DNA of 64,000 nt from Sphingobacteriales bacterium 44-15. GTDB lineage: Bacteria > Bacteroidota > Bacteroidia > Chitinophagales > Chitinophagaceae. Shown here piece after piece: positions 8,557-15,027 of the stretch (positions within the stretch are counted from its first letter, which is position 1; each line of letters opens with the position of its first letter). Where the stretch lies: contig MKWG01000007.1 of assembly GCA_001899685.1 (NCBI GenBank), forward strand, positions 1 to 64,000, in the 5' to 3' direction. Below the pieces are notes generated by a model. It was given only the letters and a program-made list of their open reading frames with translations, did not search any database and was not told the DNA's origin. The translations under genes were made by a program, and so were the position numbers.

Positions 8557-9102
8557 TCACTCCTTATAATGTGTCAAAAACCCAAATTCGTCAATACCTT
8601 TTAAATAGCACCTTGCACTACTCCGCCTGTAATCTTCAGGCTGGTCACATAAAGCCCATTTTTCAACCACAGGATTATTATGTATATATTCCAGTTTTTG
8701 TTCTAATGTTTTTATAGTACTTAATGGGATAGCCAGTTGGTCACGCTTCCAGAACTGATACTGGCGATCACTTTTGTTTGATGAAAAATTTAATAATTGC
8801 AGCTGGTTGTTTGCTTGCAGATATTTTTTTATTTGATGCGCGGTGAATTTGGTAAAACTGCCGGCCGGACTTTCTTTGCCATTTAATGCAAGGTGCGTCC
8901 ATATAAGGTGTATGTGGTTAGGCATGATTACATAACCAAAAATCCTGGACAGCTTATGCTCCACCAGATAACATAGAGATTGAATTATGATAAGCTTTAT
9001 GCTATCATCTTCTAACAAATGCTTAAAGTCAATAATAGTGTCAGTGTAAAAATAAATATCCTGCAATTCCATTTGGCCTTGCCTTTTGTGCTGTATGTTC
9101 AT
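8557..9102 (-). CDS. REP-associated tyrosine transposase (RAYT), Y1_Tnp family
   Basis: A 181-residue protein of the IS200/IS605-related Y1 transposase family, single-domain form. The HUH motif is HIHLIW (H63, H65) after VIMPN, and Tyr94 is the best candidate for the nucleophile. The C-terminal YIHNNPV and SSAR segments are typical of RAYT proteins, which nick and join single-stranded REP hairpins. The gene is flanked by the same hairpin in opposite orientations (8529-8550 and 9153-9176), giving a unit of about 650 bp. A truncated copy of the last 24 codons lies at 9230-9303. Ends, reading frame and catalytic motif all appear intact, so the element may be active. Confidence 0.88.
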   Translation of the reverse strand: MNIQHKRQGQMELQDIYFYTDTIIDFKHLLEDDSIKLIIIQSLCYLVEHKLSRIFGYVIMPNHIHLIWTHLALNGKESPAGSFTKFTAHQIKKYLQANNQLQLLNFSSNKSDRQYQFWKRDQLAIPLSTIKTLEQKLEYIHNNPVVEKWALCDQPEDYRRSSARCYLKGIDEFGFLTHYKE

Positions 9103-9152
9103 AGGTGCAATGTTTAGAGAAGTATTCTGACAAATATAGGTAAAAATTTATG

Positions 9153-9176
9153 CTGGTGTGTGAAGACACACACCAG
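9153..9176 (-). repeat. REP-like hairpin, inverted, at RAYT 5' side
   Basis: A perfect 10-bp stem CTGGTGTGTG / CACACACCAG with loop AAGA, the reverse complement of the TCTT loop at 8538-8541. It lies 50 bases upstream of the RAYT start codon and is the mirror image of the hairpin at 8529-8550, so together they bracket the transposase gene. Confidence 0.7.
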
Positions 9177-9201
9177 TAGGAAAAAGCAACGAAACCTCTA
9201 T

Positions 9202-9223
9202 CGGTGTGTGTCTTCACACACCG
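9202..9223 (+). repeat. REP-like hairpin, second direct copy
   Basis: Identical in stem (CGGTGTGTG / CACACACCG) and loop (TCTT) to the hairpin at 8529-8550, and again followed after a few bases by a RAYT stop codon, here that of the truncated copy at 9230-9303. Confidence 0.7.
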
Positions 9224-9229
9224 AAACAC

Positions 9230-9654: not shown

Positions 9655-10575
9655 ATGAGTTTATTCAGCCCGGCCGAAGGATGGTACGATAAAAAAGTAT
9701 CTAAGGATGAAAAAATGTGGATGGTCATCGCCCTTCTTCTTTGTATCAGCTTGTTTGTATGGATGATCATGTGGCATGTTTACGGAAAACAAAACCCCTC
9801 CAGTATTACTTACCGCACCAGCACCGCAGAATATGCAAAGCTGGGAGAAGCTTATACCAGGCAAAATATGATAGGGGTGGACAATGGTATCCCGGTGGTA
9901 CGCCCCCGCCCCAACAGTGATGTATTTGTTGTAAGCGAAATGTGGAGGTGGAGCCCGGTGCTGATCCTGCAAAAAGACCAGTCCTATAAATTTCACATCT
10001 CCTCCAAAGACGTAGTGCACGGATTTTCCATACAGCCGGTAAATATGAATTTCCAGGTGTACCCGCAATACGATTATGTGCTCGAATTCAAACCTACCGA
10101 AGCCGGGGAATATAATGTGATATGCAACGAGTTCTGCGGCATCGGGCACCATACCATGATCGGTAAGATGGTAGTGATTGAAAACGAAGCAGACCTGAAA
10201 CAATACGGGTACGAAAATTTTAAAAAAGCCCCTGATCCCTTACCTGAAAAAAAGAATGAGCCGCTGTCGGAAACAGAGATGGCCCTGCTGGGCGAACAGG
10301 TATATACGCTCAAAGGCTGCGGCGCCTGTCATAAAACAGATGGCAGCCACCAGATCGCACCGGCATGGAACGGCTTGTTCGGGAAAGAGGAACATGTGGT
10401 CGAGAACGGTAAGAAGACCAGCGTTAAAGTTGACGAAGCGTACATAAGAGAATCCATTAAGAATCCGCAACAAAAAATAACTGTCGGTTTCGAAACTACC
10501 GTTATGCCGGTATTCCCCGTAACGGATGATGAGATTGAACAACTGATCGCCTATATCAAAACATTAAAAAACTAA
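9655..10575 (+). CDS. Heme-copper reductase subunit II with fused cytochrome c domain
   Basis: A 306-residue electron-entry subunit. It has one N-terminal membrane helix (about residues 23-43). The cupredoxin domain carries a complete CuA site: a His in VVHGFSI (about residue 121), then C157, C161, H165 and M168 in CNEFCGIGHHTM. A C-terminal cytochrome c domain has CGACH (C222, C225, H226) and a probable Met ligand in VMPVFP near residue 287. The single N-terminal helix and cytochrome c extension are typical of B-family-like enzymes. CuA shows that the enzyme takes electrons from a cytochrome c-type or equivalent donor. It lies in an operon directly before subunit I (16-base gap). Confidence 0.9.
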   Translation: MSLFSPAEGWYDKKVSKDEKMWMVIALLLCISLFVWMIMWHVYGKQNPSSITYRTSTAEYAKLGEAYTRQNMIGVDNGIPVVRPRPNSDVFVVSEMWRWSPVLILQKDQSYKFHISSKDVVHGFSIQPVNMNFQVYPQYDYVLEFKPTEAGEYNVICNEFCGIGHHTMIGKMVVIENEADLKQYGYENFKKAPDPLPEKKNEPLSETEMALLGEQVYTLKGCGACHKTDGSHQIAPAWNGLFGKEEHVVENGKKTSVKVDEAYIRESIKNPQQKITVGFETTVMPVFPVTDDEIEQLIAYIKTLKN

Positions 10576-10591: not shown

Positions 10592-12259
10592 ATGTTTCGT
10601 ACTTGCGATATAACAGGATTTAAAGTAGACCTCCGGTCAGAAAAGCTCATACGCTACAACGCGGTATTTGCCGTCATTTCTTTATTGCTTGCCGTAACCG
10701 CCGCCATATTGCTGGTATTTACCCGCTACCAGCCGGTGCATCTCCTGGGCGCTGAATGGTATTACCGGCTGGTTACTTTTCACGGGCTGAACGCGCTTAT
10801 TTTCTGGATCATCTTCTTCGAGATCGCCGGGCTGTATTTCGGTTCCACCGTAGTACTGAACACCCGATTTTGCGCTCCCCGTCTGGGATGGGTAGCTTTC
10901 GGCTTAATGGTAGCCGGGCTGGTGCTATCCGATATCATCATCCTGATGGGGAAGGCGGATGTAATGCTCACATCGTATACACCGCTCAAGGCGCATCCGC
11001 TGTATTACCTGGGAGTGATCCTGTTTGCAGTGGGGGCATTGCTGGGCGTTATATTATTCTTTGGTAACCTGATGATCGCCAGGAGAGAAAAGGCTTATGG
11101 AGAAACGATGCCGCTTTTTACCTATGGCTTAATGACCGCAGCCATCATCGCGGTTATTACGCTGGCTACGGGAGCGCTTATTTATATCCCTACCTTTTTA
11201 TGGTCACTCGGTCTGATTGACAATATTGACCCGGCTATGTACAAGCTGATCTGGTGGGGACTTGGGCACTCTTCCCAGCAGATCAATGTAGCGGCAATGG
11301 TATCCATCTGGTATATGACGTCATTTTTGGCGGTAGGCGGCACTTCCATAAATGAAAGAGTGTCGAGAACAGCCTTTGTATTGTACATCCTTTTTATCTG
11401 CCTGGCCTCCGCGCACCACCTGCTCACAGATCCGGGTGTAAGCAGCGCATGGAAAGTATGGAATACCAGCTATGCTATGTACCTCGCCGTGCTTGCCTCT
11501 ATGATACACGCTTTTGCCGTGCCTTCTTCATTCGAATCAGCTCAACGCAGATGGGGATACAATAAAGGATTGTTTCAATGGCTGTCAAAAGCTCCCTGGG
11601 GCAATCCTGCTTTTTCTTCCATAATATTAGCCATCATCGGTTTTGGATTTATCGGCGGTACCACAGGAGTGATCTTCGGAATGGAGCAGACCAATATCAT
11701 TGTGCATAACACCATTGCTATTCCCGGTCATTTTAAAGGAACCGTGGTCATTGGCACTACCCTCACGTTTATGGGCATCACCTATTATCTTATCCCGCTG
11801 ATCTTCCGGAGAAAGATCGTGGGCTTCGGATGGGCCAAATGGCAACCCTGGCTATTCTTTATCGGTATAGCGCTCCTGTCTGTTTCCATGATCGTGCTGG
11901 GGCAGTTAGGCGTTCCAAGACGTCATTGGGATTCTACTTTCTCCGGCGGCCCATTCACTTATAATTTCAATCCTGCAGTAGACTTTTTCTGGGCGCTGAT
12001 GATGCTGGGAGGCTCACTGGCATTTATATCCACCATAATATGGATACTGATCGTGGTGATCTCCGTTTTCTTTGGTCCTAAAGTAAAAGGTCCAGAGGAT
12101 ATGCAGCTCAGCATTTCGCCATTGGCGCCCACGGCCAAAGCGCATAAAGGATTTGAAGCACCCGGCACCCTTGTGCTCACTATATTGTTCTTACTGGTTT
12201 TTATAGCGCTCTTTTTCCTGAACTGGAAATGGCTTGCCGCAACATGGAATGTAAAATAA
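10592..12259 (+). CDS. Heme-copper reductase subunit I lacking the active-site Tyr (possible NO reductase-type)
   Basis: A 555-residue, about 13-14 helix catalytic subunit. Expected ligands present are H64 (low-spin heme, in TFHGLN), H226 (CuB), H275-H276 (CuB, in AHHLLTDPG) and H380 (high-spin heme, in PGHFK). Two key residues differ from oxygen reductases. The position four after H226, where oxidases have the His-crosslinked Tyr, is Gln230 (GHSSQQ). The residue two after H380, normally the second low-spin heme His, is Lys382. HCO families without the crosslinked Tyr are generally NO reductases, so this may be a CuA-type NO reductase; a divergent oxidase is the alternative. Family framework and DPG context are B-type-like. 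Confidence 0.88.
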   Translation: MFRTCDITGFKVDLRSEKLIRYNAVFAVISLLLAVTAAILLVFTRYQPVHLLGAEWYYRLVTFHGLNALIFWIIFFEIAGLYFGSTVVLNTRFCAPRLGWVAFGLMVAGLVLSDIIILMGKADVMLTSYTPLKAHPLYYLGVILFAVGALLGVILFFGNLMIARREKAYGETMPLFTYGLMTAAIIAVITLATGALIYIPTFLWSLGLIDNIDPAMYKLIWWGLGHSSQQINVAAMVSIWYMTSFLAVGGTSINERVSRTAFVLYILFICLASAHHLLTDPGVSSAWKVWNTSYAMYLAVLASMIHAFAVPSSFESAQRRWGYNKGLFQWLSKAPWGNPAFSSIILAIIGFGFIGGTTGVIFGMEQTNIIVHNTIAIPGHFKGTVVIGTTLTFMGITYYLIPLIFRRKIVGFGWAKWQPWLFFIGIALLSVSMIVLGQLGVPRRHWDSTFSGGPFTYNFNPAVDFFWALMMLGGSLAFISTIIWILIVVISVFFGPKVKGPEDMQLSISPLAPTAKAHKGFEAPGTLVLTILFLLVFIALFFLNWKWLAATWNVK

Positions 12260-12338: not shown

Positions 12339-13085
12339 GTGAAATACACATATTTATGGATAGCGCCCCTATGGTTTTTGTTGAGCGGGTTCAATCTCCC
12401 CAATGAAAAAAACTTTCTTGCACAAAAAGCCGCTAACATCCGGGTATTCGACGCTACCGGCAAAACCTTCGAGCTTTACTCCCTGCTGGGGAAAAAGCCG
12501 CTGATCATTTCGCCGGTATATACCCGGTGCCATTCGCTTTGTGGGGTGATCAGCAACGGAGTGCAAACAGCAATTAATGAACTGGGCACGCTGGGGCAGG
12601 ATTTTACCATGGTGAGCTTTTCTTTCGACAGCAGCGACAGGCAAATAAATCTTGCTGCCTATGAAAGCCGCTGGAAGATGGATGGAGTAAACTGGAAAAC
12701 CATTTCCGCTTCAGGGAAAGACATTCAGCGCCTGCTGTCATCCATTGGTTACGAGTATGACTATGACCCCGCAACAAAGGAGTTCAATCATCCTTCCATA
12801 CTTATTGTTTTGACGCCCGGCGGAAGAATATCAAGATTTATATACGGCGTAAATCCTTCCAAAAAAGATATAAAGCTGGCAGTGATAGAGGCTATGGCTG
12901 AAAAAATAAGACCAGGGCTCTTCAAAGGCTTTTACCTGCGCTGCTTTGGTTATGATCCGGCTTTAAAAACCTATAAGCCGGACTGGCGGTTTATTATATC
13001 CACGTCGGCCGGTTTGCTGATGATCAGCCTGGTGAGCGGGCTTTTTATAAAATCCTTTATCATCTCAAAAAATCAGGATGGATAA
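12339..13085 (+). CDS. SCO1/SenC-family copper chaperone-like protein, membrane anchored
   Basis: A 248-residue SCO-like protein, expected to assist copper loading of the CuA centre or to act as a thiol redox protein in the periplasm. It starts with GTG (the ATG two bases earlier is out of frame and followed at once by a stop). It has an N-terminal signal sequence, a thioredoxin-fold domain with the CxxxC copper site in RCHSLC (about residues 64-69), and the third ligand His in FNHPSI (about residue 150). Unusually, a second membrane helix lies near the C-terminus (about residues 219-240). Its stop overlaps the next start codon by 8 bases (13078-13085), implying translational coupling to the cytochrome b fusion gene. 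Confidence 0.88.
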   Translation: MKYTYLWIAPLWFLLSGFNLPNEKNFLAQKAANIRVFDATGKTFELYSLLGKKPLIISPVYTRCHSLCGVISNGVQTAINELGTLGQDFTMVSFSFDSSDRQINLAAYESRWKMDGVNWKTISASGKDIQRLLSSIGYEYDYDPATKEFNHPSILIVLTPGGRISRFIYGVNPSKKDIKLAVIEAMAEKIRPGLFKGFYLRCFGYDPALKTYKPDWRFIISTSAGLLMISLVSGLFIKSFIISKNQDG

Positions 13086-15027
13086 GCATACCAATGATAA
13101 TACAAATACGGTAAAAGAGCGTACCCGTGGACACCGTTTTTTTCAAAAGCTATCATCTCCGCTGGGGAAAATATATTCTACCAATCTGAACCCTCTATAT
13201 AACCTGGGTAGTATTGCCATACTGTTGTTCGTGATCGCCTGTATTTCGGGAATATATGTGTTTATTTTTTACAACATCAATCCCCGTCATGCCTGGGATT
13301 CGGTAGAGACAATGTCTGCCAATATCTTTAACGGGTGGATGCGAACGATACACCGGTATTCATCAGACCTGTTGGTTATTTTTATTTTACTGCATCTCGT
13401 GCATACTTTAATAACCTCCAAGTTCAAGCGGCTGGTATCCTGGATCAGCGGGGTGATCTCTTTCCTGATCGTTATTATCATAGGGGTAACCGGTTTCATA
13501 CTGGTATGGGATCAGAAAGCAAAGCTGACAGGCTATCTCACCGCCCGGCTTTTTTCATCACTTCCCATCTTCGATCCTTCCATCGCCGGGGCTTTTTTAA
13601 TGAACGACCTGGATACGGTGGGCGGCTTTTTTAAAGTGGCATTGTTCGGGCATATCGCGTTCTCACTGATTACTGTCATCGTTATCTGGATACATGTGCT
13701 GCGCATCTCCAAACCCAAAATTTTCCCTCCAAAAAAGCTGATCATATATTGCGTGATCGCCCTGGGGATCATCTCTATCCTGTTTCCGGTAAAAAGCGAT
13801 CCGCCTGCACAGGCTTCCAACCTGCCCACAGCAACAACCTTCGACTGGTATTACTATTTCGGTTATTACCTGATGAAGCTGTTCAGCGTTAACCAGAACT
13901 GGATGATCCTGACAGGCTCGGGATTGTTGCTTTGCATCGTACCCTATATTATTAAAAGAAAAAACAGGGCGCCTGTCTTTATTGATCTCAACAAATGCGA
14001 TGCCTGCAATCTTTGCTCCTATGATTGCCCCTATGAGGCTATTGATATGCTTACCAGAAACGGACAAAGGAAAGCTATCCTGTCGCCCGACAAATGTGTG
14101 GGCTGTGGTATATGCATCGGCTCCTGCGATGAACATGCCATCAGCCACCCGCAATTTCCGGCAGTAGATCTCGCTCCGCGGGGGAAAGCCGACGTTACGC
14201 TATACAGTTGCAGCTATTTTCCCGATCCGGAATTGCCCGCTAACCTGGATATCGTTCACTACAGCGTTCCCTGCATAGGCAGCGTCATGCCCCGGGATGT
14301 GCAGCAAATACTGGAGCACAACAGCCGGAAAGTTGTGCTGCTGAGCTGCGAGGACTGCTATTACCGCCTTGGAAAAACCTGGGCCATCAGCAGGTTCCTG
14401 CGAAAAAGAGCGCCTTTATTTTCCAAAAAATACAATGCTTCCAAACTGAAATTGTTTACCATAACCCAATACAGCAAAGAAAAGCTGCTCGACTTTCTTC
14501 ATCAAAATATTGAAGAGGATAAGCCCCCCGGGCAAATGGCCGTTGCTGATCATGAAAGGCCCCGGCATTTTACCGCGGTATTGATCCTTACCGTTTGCTT
14601 TGCCCTGATAATCCCTTTAAGCAGCACAGTAGTGCGGTTCTTTAATCCTGCTGAAAAAACATTATTCGTTAACTTTAAATACATCTCCACTCCCCAGGAA
14701 TACGAGCAAAACAAATCACTGGCGAAACATATGCAATCGTCCACACCGGTAGTAAAAAAGAGAAGCCCTGTGACGCTGAAAATATTTTCATCTCAAAACA
14801 ACGCTTTGATTTTTGAAAAGGAATTTACACCCCGGGGGATACGCCAGGATATTGCGATGTTTATCTATACACAGCTCACCCTTAAGGAAGATGCTGTAAA
14901 CATCCAGCTCCAGGAGACAGCCTTTCCCGAAAAACAATACCGGCTGAACAATGTGCCGTTGAAAAAAGGAGACGGAACATTTGTAGTATTTAAAGATAAT
15001 AACCTGGTTGTGGCAGGTTCAAAATAG
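13078..15027 (+). CDS. Cytochrome b - bis[4Fe-4S] ferredoxin - MvhD-like fusion protein
   Basis: A 649-residue membrane redox protein of unusual build. Residues 1-235 are a cytochrome b6-like four-helix bundle with two bis-His heme pairs: H92/H106 and H192/H206. Two further hydrophobic segments follow (about 240-255 and 275-300). A ferredoxin module carries CX2CX2CX3CP (C307, C310, C313, C317) and a second set (C340, C343, C346, C350). Residues 375-470 resemble the MvhD/hydrogenase delta iron-sulfur domain, with C378, C399 and the pair C424/C427. A last membrane helix lies at about 500-522, then a soluble tail without known motif. It is translationally coupled to the SCO-like gene and could pass electrons from quinol or ferredoxin to the reductase. 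The order of domains is read directly; the role is inferred. Confidence 0.85.
   Translation: MDKHTNDNTNTVKERTRGHRFFQKLSSPLGKIYSTNLNPLYNLGSIAILLFVIACISGIYVFIFYNINPRHAWDSVETMSANIFNGWMRTIHRYSSDLLVIFILLHLVHTLITSKFKRLVSWISGVISFLIVIIIGVTGFILVWDQKAKLTGYLTARLFSSLPIFDPSIAGAFLMNDLDTVGGFFKVALFGHIAFSLITVIVIWIHVLRISKPKIFPPKKLIIYCVIALGIISILFPVKSDPPAQASNLPTATTFDWYYYFGYYLMKLFSVNQNWMILTGSGLLLCIVPYIIKRKNRAPVFIDLNKCDACNLCSYDCPYEAIDMLTRNGQRKAILSPDKCVGCGICIGSCDEHAISHPQFPAVDLAPRGKADVTLYSCSYFPDPELPANLDIVHYSVPCIGSVMPRDVQQILEHNSRKVVLLSCEDCYYRLGKTWAISRFLRKRAPLFSKKYNASKLKLFTITQYSKEKLLDFLHQNIEEDKPPGQMAVADHERPRHFTAVLILTVCFALIIPLSSTVVRFFNPAEKTLFVNFKYISTPQEYEQNKSLAKHMQSSTPVVKKRSPVTLKIFSSQNNALIFEKEFTPRGIRQDIAMFIYTQLTLKEDAVNIQLQETAFPEKQYRLNNVPLKKGDGTFVVFKDNNLVVAGSK

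Follow-up and report, generated by a model that had tools for sequence, protein, structure and literature searches.

The heme-copper superfamily is characterised by a six-histidine signature that includes His ligation of the electron-transferring heme (PMC3475470, part of the text). The window analysed here, a stretch of 64,000 nucleotides from Sphingobacteriales bacterium 44-15 (contig C7 of a 6.0 Mb genome in 46 contigs), encodes a subunit I in which five of these columns hold histidine and the sixth holds a lysine, Lys382. The tyrosine that is cross-linked in ba3-type oxidases is replaced as well, by Gln230. Does such a protein reduce NO or O2, and what holds its low-spin heme? Here we argue that the operon (Table 1), taken as a whole, probably encodes an eNOR-type, CuA-containing NO reductase with a His64/Lys382 low-spin heme. 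That the enzyme is a NO reductase is highly probable.

Table 1. Genes of the operon and the upstream regulator, in window coordinates
Feature	Position	Strand	Basis
FNR/CRP-family regulator, N-terminal Cys residues	6877..7623	+	Pfam cNMP_binding, HTH_Crp_2
61-aa protein, one probable TM segment	9444..9629	+	translation, position
Subunit II, CuA domain and C-terminal cytochrome c	9655..10575	+	Pfam COX2, Cytochrom_C
Subunit I, eNOR type by sequence, Gln230 and Lys382	10592..12259	+	555 aa, ATG start
SCO1/SenC-like copper chaperone	12339..13085	+	Pfam SCO1-SenC; CxxxC at 64, H151; position kept in relatives
Cytochrome b with two [4Fe-4S] ferredoxin motifs and FlpD-like domain	13078..15027	+	Pfam; Cys/His positions

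By homology, ORF 10592-12259 encodes subunit I of a B-family heme-copper enzyme. Despite the lysine in the six-His signature the protein is still homologous to the superfamily, scoring 220 bits against Pfam COX1, and phmmer aligns it over most of the chain with the Thermus thermophilus ba3 oxygen reductase (1EHK; E 7e-46), the best aligned of the solved structures. A profile of the family again placed ba3 oxidases at the top of the solved structures, and none of the 26 structure sequences that it matched is labelled as a NO reductase. In the phmmer alignment H64, H226, H275/H276 and H380 occupy the ba3 ligand columns, which we take to be H72, H233, H282/283 and H384; the core ligands are thus kept, as the original prediction had it. 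Its two departures from the pattern are borne out too: Q230 sits under the cross-link Tyr (Tyr237 in our presumed numbering) and K382 aligns with the ligand of the low-spin heme (presumably His386). With five ligand-His columns in common and these two residues exchanged for Gln and Lys, the activity of the window protein would be expected to differ from that of ba3. Canonical cNOR and qNOR carry a Glu in an HxxxE active-site motif, which is absent from subunit I, where the sequence reads HSSQQ. The Asn described at the Tyr column of the Bacillus azotoformans subunit I (PMC3475470, part of the text) is likewise not the residue found here. Purifying selection acts on the gene: dN/dS is 0.035 with one close relative and 0.029 with another, and a third pair was saturated. 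Its nearest named relatives, among the best 80 of 437 found in a scan of genome contigs, are Chitinophagaceae metagenome bins.

The glutamine assigns the protein to a family. Reportedly, this family, eNOR, was treated by Hemp and Gennis in 2008 and by Murali et al. in PNAS in 2024. HxxxQ is present in all of the best 80 of the 437 loci, and all 17 more distant B-family rows have Tyr at the cross-link column and His at the 382 column. In trees of 117, 50 and 54 rows, the Gln rows without exception group into a single clade (support 100), apart from the Tyr-bearing B-family outgroup; the outgroup branch is long in all three trees, the tool warns of it, and the rows that place the clade do not include published reference eNOR sequences. 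A Gln in this position is the identifying feature of eNOR, a known NO reductase family (PMC8756737, part of the text), and the cupredoxin CuA subunit II characteristic of eNOR adjoins subunit I in the window, its motif complete (H122, C157, C161, H165, M168). On these sequence features the window protein is of eNOR type and not of a new family: the B-family subunit I, the CuA subunit and the Gln are the same, and it shares a clade with the Gln proteins of His type. The Gln variant is already known and already named; only the Lys, in place of the His that eNOR has as second low-spin heme residue, could be novel. Neither the alignment, with Gln at the Tyr column, nor the trees, which keep the protein apart from the Tyr oxidases, contradicts the prediction that NO is reduced.

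How widespread is the lysine? At the 382 column, the best 80 of the 437 loci read HFK in 54 cases and HFH in 25, the last (L034, CP058702.1) having an ambiguous codon. That codon reads AAN, and L034 is left out of the 54; it is present in the 117-row tree and absent from the two smaller ones. Sixty-two Lys rows entered the tree set, namely the 54 loci, seven more from a scan of the window's order, and the window itself. A scan of Aquificota gave matches in 21 of 136 genomes, with Lys in 20 of the 20 loci that cover the site, some of these being genes already counted. The quick 117-row tree included column 382 and was made after five fetched rows (L081, L082, L084, L086, L123) had been dropped, whereas the 50- and 54-row trees excluded this column and had their rows thinned at 86% identity. 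In L055, L060 and L068 a stop lies inside the match, and the translations end there. The 50-row tree unites the Lys proteins of Bacteroidota (Kapaibacterium included), an HR21 bin and Aquificota in a clade with support 100/100 that is nested among His-bearing eNORs. Lys is invariant across this clade wherever the codon is readable.

A second group of Lys proteins came from a search of named plasmids, which returned 49 records, five of which were inspected. Two T. thermophilus proteins (WP_244347299.1 and WP_201351426.1, annotated as cbb3-type oxidase subunit I; named carriers are strains SNM6-6 and HB5018) combine Gln with HFK, as the window protein does, and are 49% identical to it over 84-86% of its length. 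Plasmid proteins of Thermomicrobium roseum and Defluviimonas have Gln with HFH, and that of Haloarcula is a Tyr oxidase. The 54-row tree joins the two Thermus proteins to the L094/L098 lineage (98/90), outside the window clade, so that Lys needs two gains on this tree. Forcing all Lys rows into a single clade costs 30.8 log-likelihood units with a p-AU of 0.047 in the presence of long branches, a borderline rejection of a single origin. The two-origin reading is weakened by the unstable placement of L094/L098, which on long branches falls with Proteobacteria (117 rows), has no fixed partner (50 rows) or joins Thermus (54 rows). We conclude that the lysine probably arose a second time in the Thermus plasmid lineage.

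Coupled substitutions were also considered as evidence of convergence and rejected. Twenty-eight columns, 382 included, separate the window's Lys clade from the His-type rows; besides 382, both Thermus rows share only 420, 429 and 436 with it, and at least three such residues, up to 10, also occur in 9 of 29 His-type rows.

The likelier reading of this column is that Lys382 takes the place of His as a ligand of the low-spin heme. It draws on the invariance of Lys, on the probable second origin, on the invariance of H64 and of the Arg pair R443/R444 in the sets compared, and on a column comparison in which no other residue that could bind iron proved to be shared by the two Lys lineages and rare among the His rows. 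His/Lys ligation, which the original prediction called unusual, is plausible and backed by the invariance and the probable second origin. A rival account, which we regard as rather unlikely, keeps the NO reductase and leaves Lys382 unbound to heme: the low-spin heme would be five-coordinate, otherwise bound or lost, and the lysine would be structural or serve proton transfer. The 28 diagnostic columns speak for this account insofar as the surroundings of the site may be remodelled. The eNOR papers may discuss a Lys ligand. Ligation by Lys in a heme-copper protein was not found in the open-licence literature searched, which does not include the 2024 PNAS study and gives weak evidence of absence; the word lysine is absent from the texts of PMC11388526 and PMC8756737. 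On the other side, Lys stands exactly at the ligand column, probably twice over, His64 and the Arg pair do not vary in the sets compared, and the two Lys lineages share no His or Met that could stand in.

In the window, the neighbours of the subunit I gene have counterparts in the relatives. Clusters of neighbours were built for the best 80 of the 437 loci plus the window, comprising 55 Lys-type loci (window included) and 25 of His type. Subunit II belongs to a cluster present at 52/55 Lys-type and 14/25 His-type loci, and the cytochrome b protein to one present at 54/55 and 12/25. In the window, subunit II ends in a fused cytochrome c (CxxCH at 222). This fusion, found in most Bacteroidota Lys-type loci, sets them apart from the eNOR family; where a CuA ORF was found, CxxCH after CuA is absent in Aquificota, Kapaibacterium and the His-type loci. 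Just upstream of subunit II stands the small membrane-protein ORF, with counterparts of 29-90% identity at 52/55 Lys-type (L034 counted) and 16/25 His-type loci; its 61-aa product had no NCBIfam match and by position resembles subunit IIa of B-type oxidases. The cytochrome b protein has His pairs at 92/106 and 192/206, each spaced by 14 residues. Its gene is divergently oriented in Aquificota. It is probably an electron-transfer partner of the enzyme and perhaps, as a fusion, a quinol dehydrogenase. Similar cytochrome b/ferredoxin/FlpD-like fusions accompany eNOR in several phyla.

Many relatives have an FNR-type regulator a short distance upstream of the operon; its cluster occurs at 32/55 Lys-type and 1/25 His-type loci. 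In the window, the two are separated by a Fic gene and one for a Y1-transposase-like protein, and the regulator scores below the cut-offs of the NCBIfam Fnr models. A TTGA-N6-TCAA box was not found in the 250 bases before the small ORF of the window; such boxes occur in 4 (L013, L016, L070, L076) of 69 stretches scanned, and one of the 69, that from L012, is only 5 bases long. The Y1-transposase-like protein (181 aa, 8557-9225) has no Pfam match, and two GTGTGTGAAGACACACAC-type palindromes lie beside its gene; its MPNHIHLIW motif is presumably that of Y1-transposase-like proteins.

Taken together, the operon suggests a path for the electrons. The enzyme would catalyse 2 NO + 2 e- + 2 H+ -> N2O + H2O, with NO as the presumed substrate. 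A periplasmic donor would feed electrons to the cytochrome c fused to subunit II and then to its CuA, from which they would reach the low-spin heme, held by His64 and putatively Lys382, and go on to a site made of the high-spin heme (His380) and CuB (His226, His275, His276), with Gln230 in the place of the Tyr. Lacking the Tyr, this site would be without an electron and proton donor for splitting O2, which would favour NO. The SCO protein would load copper, and the cytochrome b/ferredoxin protein would probably connect the quinone pool to the donor.

If NO is the substrate, genes for its production and for further reduction of N2O bear on the assignment. NirS (cytochrome cd1; PF02239, 370-397 bits in three Lys-type neighbours) is encoded beside the eNOR gene at 8 of the first set's 55 Lys-type loci, those of Cyclobacteriaceae (L039), Flavobacteriales (L041, L054) and Aquificota (L044, L045, L046, L048, L049), and in all six further Aquificota stretches. 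Within flanks of at most 7 kb, many of them cut earlier by the contig end, nirS was not found beside a Lys-type gene of the first set in Chitinophagales, the window's group. The cd1 nitrite reductase of H. thermophilus TK-6 has been purified (PMC3111988, part of the text), and an eNOR shares an operon with nirK in Ardenticatena (PMC4653789, part of the text). A survey of 50 genomes, those of 49 of the best 80 loci and that of the window, covered 35 of Lys type (the ambiguous L034 included) and 15 of His type. Matches to nosZ (TIGR04246) above cut-off occur in 31/35 Lys-type and 1/15 His-type genomes, a contrast confounded by phylum, as the His-type genomes belong mostly to other phyla; in G555 the nosZ gene is split, and His-type G562 and G568 have nosZ matches of about 480 bits. 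For nirK above cut-off the counts are 16/35 and 7/15, for nirS at E<=1e-60 they are 7/35 and 7/15, and at these thresholds one or the other is present in 23/35 and 13/15. Within the window's order, nosZ exceeds its cut-off in 7 of 9 eNOR-bearing genomes versus 89 of 239 others, and the window genome carries both nosZ and nirK on contig C22. The prediction of NO rather than O2 reduction thus gains support from the Gln clade, from nirS adjacency in some lineages and from the co-occurrence of the eNOR gene with nosZ and with nirK or nirS.

The same surroundings bear on whether the enzyme conserves energy. It could instead remove toxic NO, an alternative that we regard as rather unlikely. Genes of NO-stress type adjoin some copies: in some Aquificota (L049, L050, L051, L157) the opposite flank carries hemerythrin, Rrf2 and NnrS-like genes (the last below cut-off), and the Thermus plasmid gene has Rrf2 and ScdA_N/DUF542 genes beside it, as well as a gene for a NirK-like multicopper oxidase (TIGR02376 at 155 bits against a cut-off of 296). 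Moreover, 12 of the 35 Lys-type genomes gave neither nirK nor nirS at threshold. The nirS linkage and the frequent nosZ fit a respiratory chain. A proton channel is also at issue: two ba3 positions that we take to belong to a proton channel, Y244 and S261, have V237 and N254 as their equivalents in the window protein, and Y241, S303 and the eNOR-specific H306 do not vary among the Gln rows compared. Models assign eNOR a proton channel (PMC8756737, part of the text), which speaks against detoxification alone.

The other heme-copper proteins of the carriers bear on the substrate. The window genome has five COX1-family matches, namely an aa3 and a cbb3 oxidase, subunit I itself, a short fragment and a C-family protein lacking the Tyr, with no canonical cNOR or qNOR among them. 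Direct inspection of the COX1-family matches of G000 and G559 showed no canonical NorB. At least one Tyr-bearing oxidase is already present in the window genome and in each of eight other Lys-type genomes inspected. This argues against reading the enzyme, its missing Tyr notwithstanding, as an oxidase that tolerates NO or reduces O2 with high affinity, a role that we consider very unlikely. Such a role has been argued for sNOR, another Tyr-less group, in nitrifiers (PMC6967387, part of the text), and the upstream FNR-type regulator would suit control by low oxygen. The invariant Gln of the best 80 loci and the links to nirS and nosZ point away from it. Both sNOR and bNOR (Nitrosomonas NorSY, Bacillus CbaA) are CuA-containing B-family relatives proposed as NO reductases, and sNOR clusters also carry senC, like the SCO gene of the window operon (PMC6967387 and PMC3475470, parts of the texts).

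The preferred enzyme, an eNOR-type NO reductase, need not be the only one in its host. A canonical cNOR NorB is also encoded by four Aquificota genomes (G601, G611, G609, G585) and by the Lys-type Bacteroidota genome G550 (L128), so that eNOR is not the sole NO reductase in these. A search of the 50 genomes for a DNA pattern encoding HLWVEG, presumably the canonical cNOR/qNOR motif, was rejected as a sign of NorB: of its two matches L128 is a real NorB and L129 a chance match. As Aquificota NorB reads HLWVEA and escapes it, the pattern is unusable for claiming absence. In the window genome, the C-family protein L083 (C3:397019-398257) is cbb3-like, with 715 aa and Phe at the cbb3 Tyr position (HHFVFSAIPWW), and lacks the Glu seen in cNOR; L175 in G529 is likewise a Tyr-less C-family protein. 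L083 is possibly another unusual NO reductase, and that it could also reduce NO counts against the NO-reductase reading of the operon.

A wider scenario can be put forward tentatively, as a real possibility that stops short of probable. NO reductases with a His/Lys low-spin heme may have arisen two or more times from ancestral eNORs of His/His type and been kept in the Bacteroidota-Aquificota clade; the Lys would tune the heme potential, probably lowering it, or be a ligand switchable with redox state or pH, and several lineages would pair the enzyme with nirS as a compact unit from nitrite to N2O. The conserved, probably twice-evolved Lys offers a natural experiment on the role of low-spin heme ligands, and T. 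thermophilus strains with the plasmid copy, and perhaps a Hydrogenobacter, make the question testable. Annotation rules that insist on six histidines would pass over probable NO reductases, and a NO reductase may after all exist in some genomes that have nir and nosZ and lack canonical nor, the window's among them. The product of the probable NO reduction, N2O, is a greenhouse gas, and the gene for the enzyme resembles that of an oxygen-consuming respiratory enzyme.

Two further kinds of heme-copper-like protein were observed in the carriers. A subunit I paralog of about 420 residues lies next to or near eNOR in L155 (6595-7893), L153, L154, L156, L158, L122 and L039, and more weakly in L055, L057, L062, L064, L068, L070, L071, L074, L087-L090 and L092. 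It keeps GHxQQ and AHYH and has no CuB His pair there (full reading in L154 and L155), and is a possible electron-transfer companion of eNOR; the type is not among the five COX1-family matches of the window genome. Short heme-copper-like proteins in Lys-type genomes (L193, L182) read RTLVN or GHTLVN at the active-site helix, together with AHFHTY, and are possibly related to sNOR, gNOR or nNOR.
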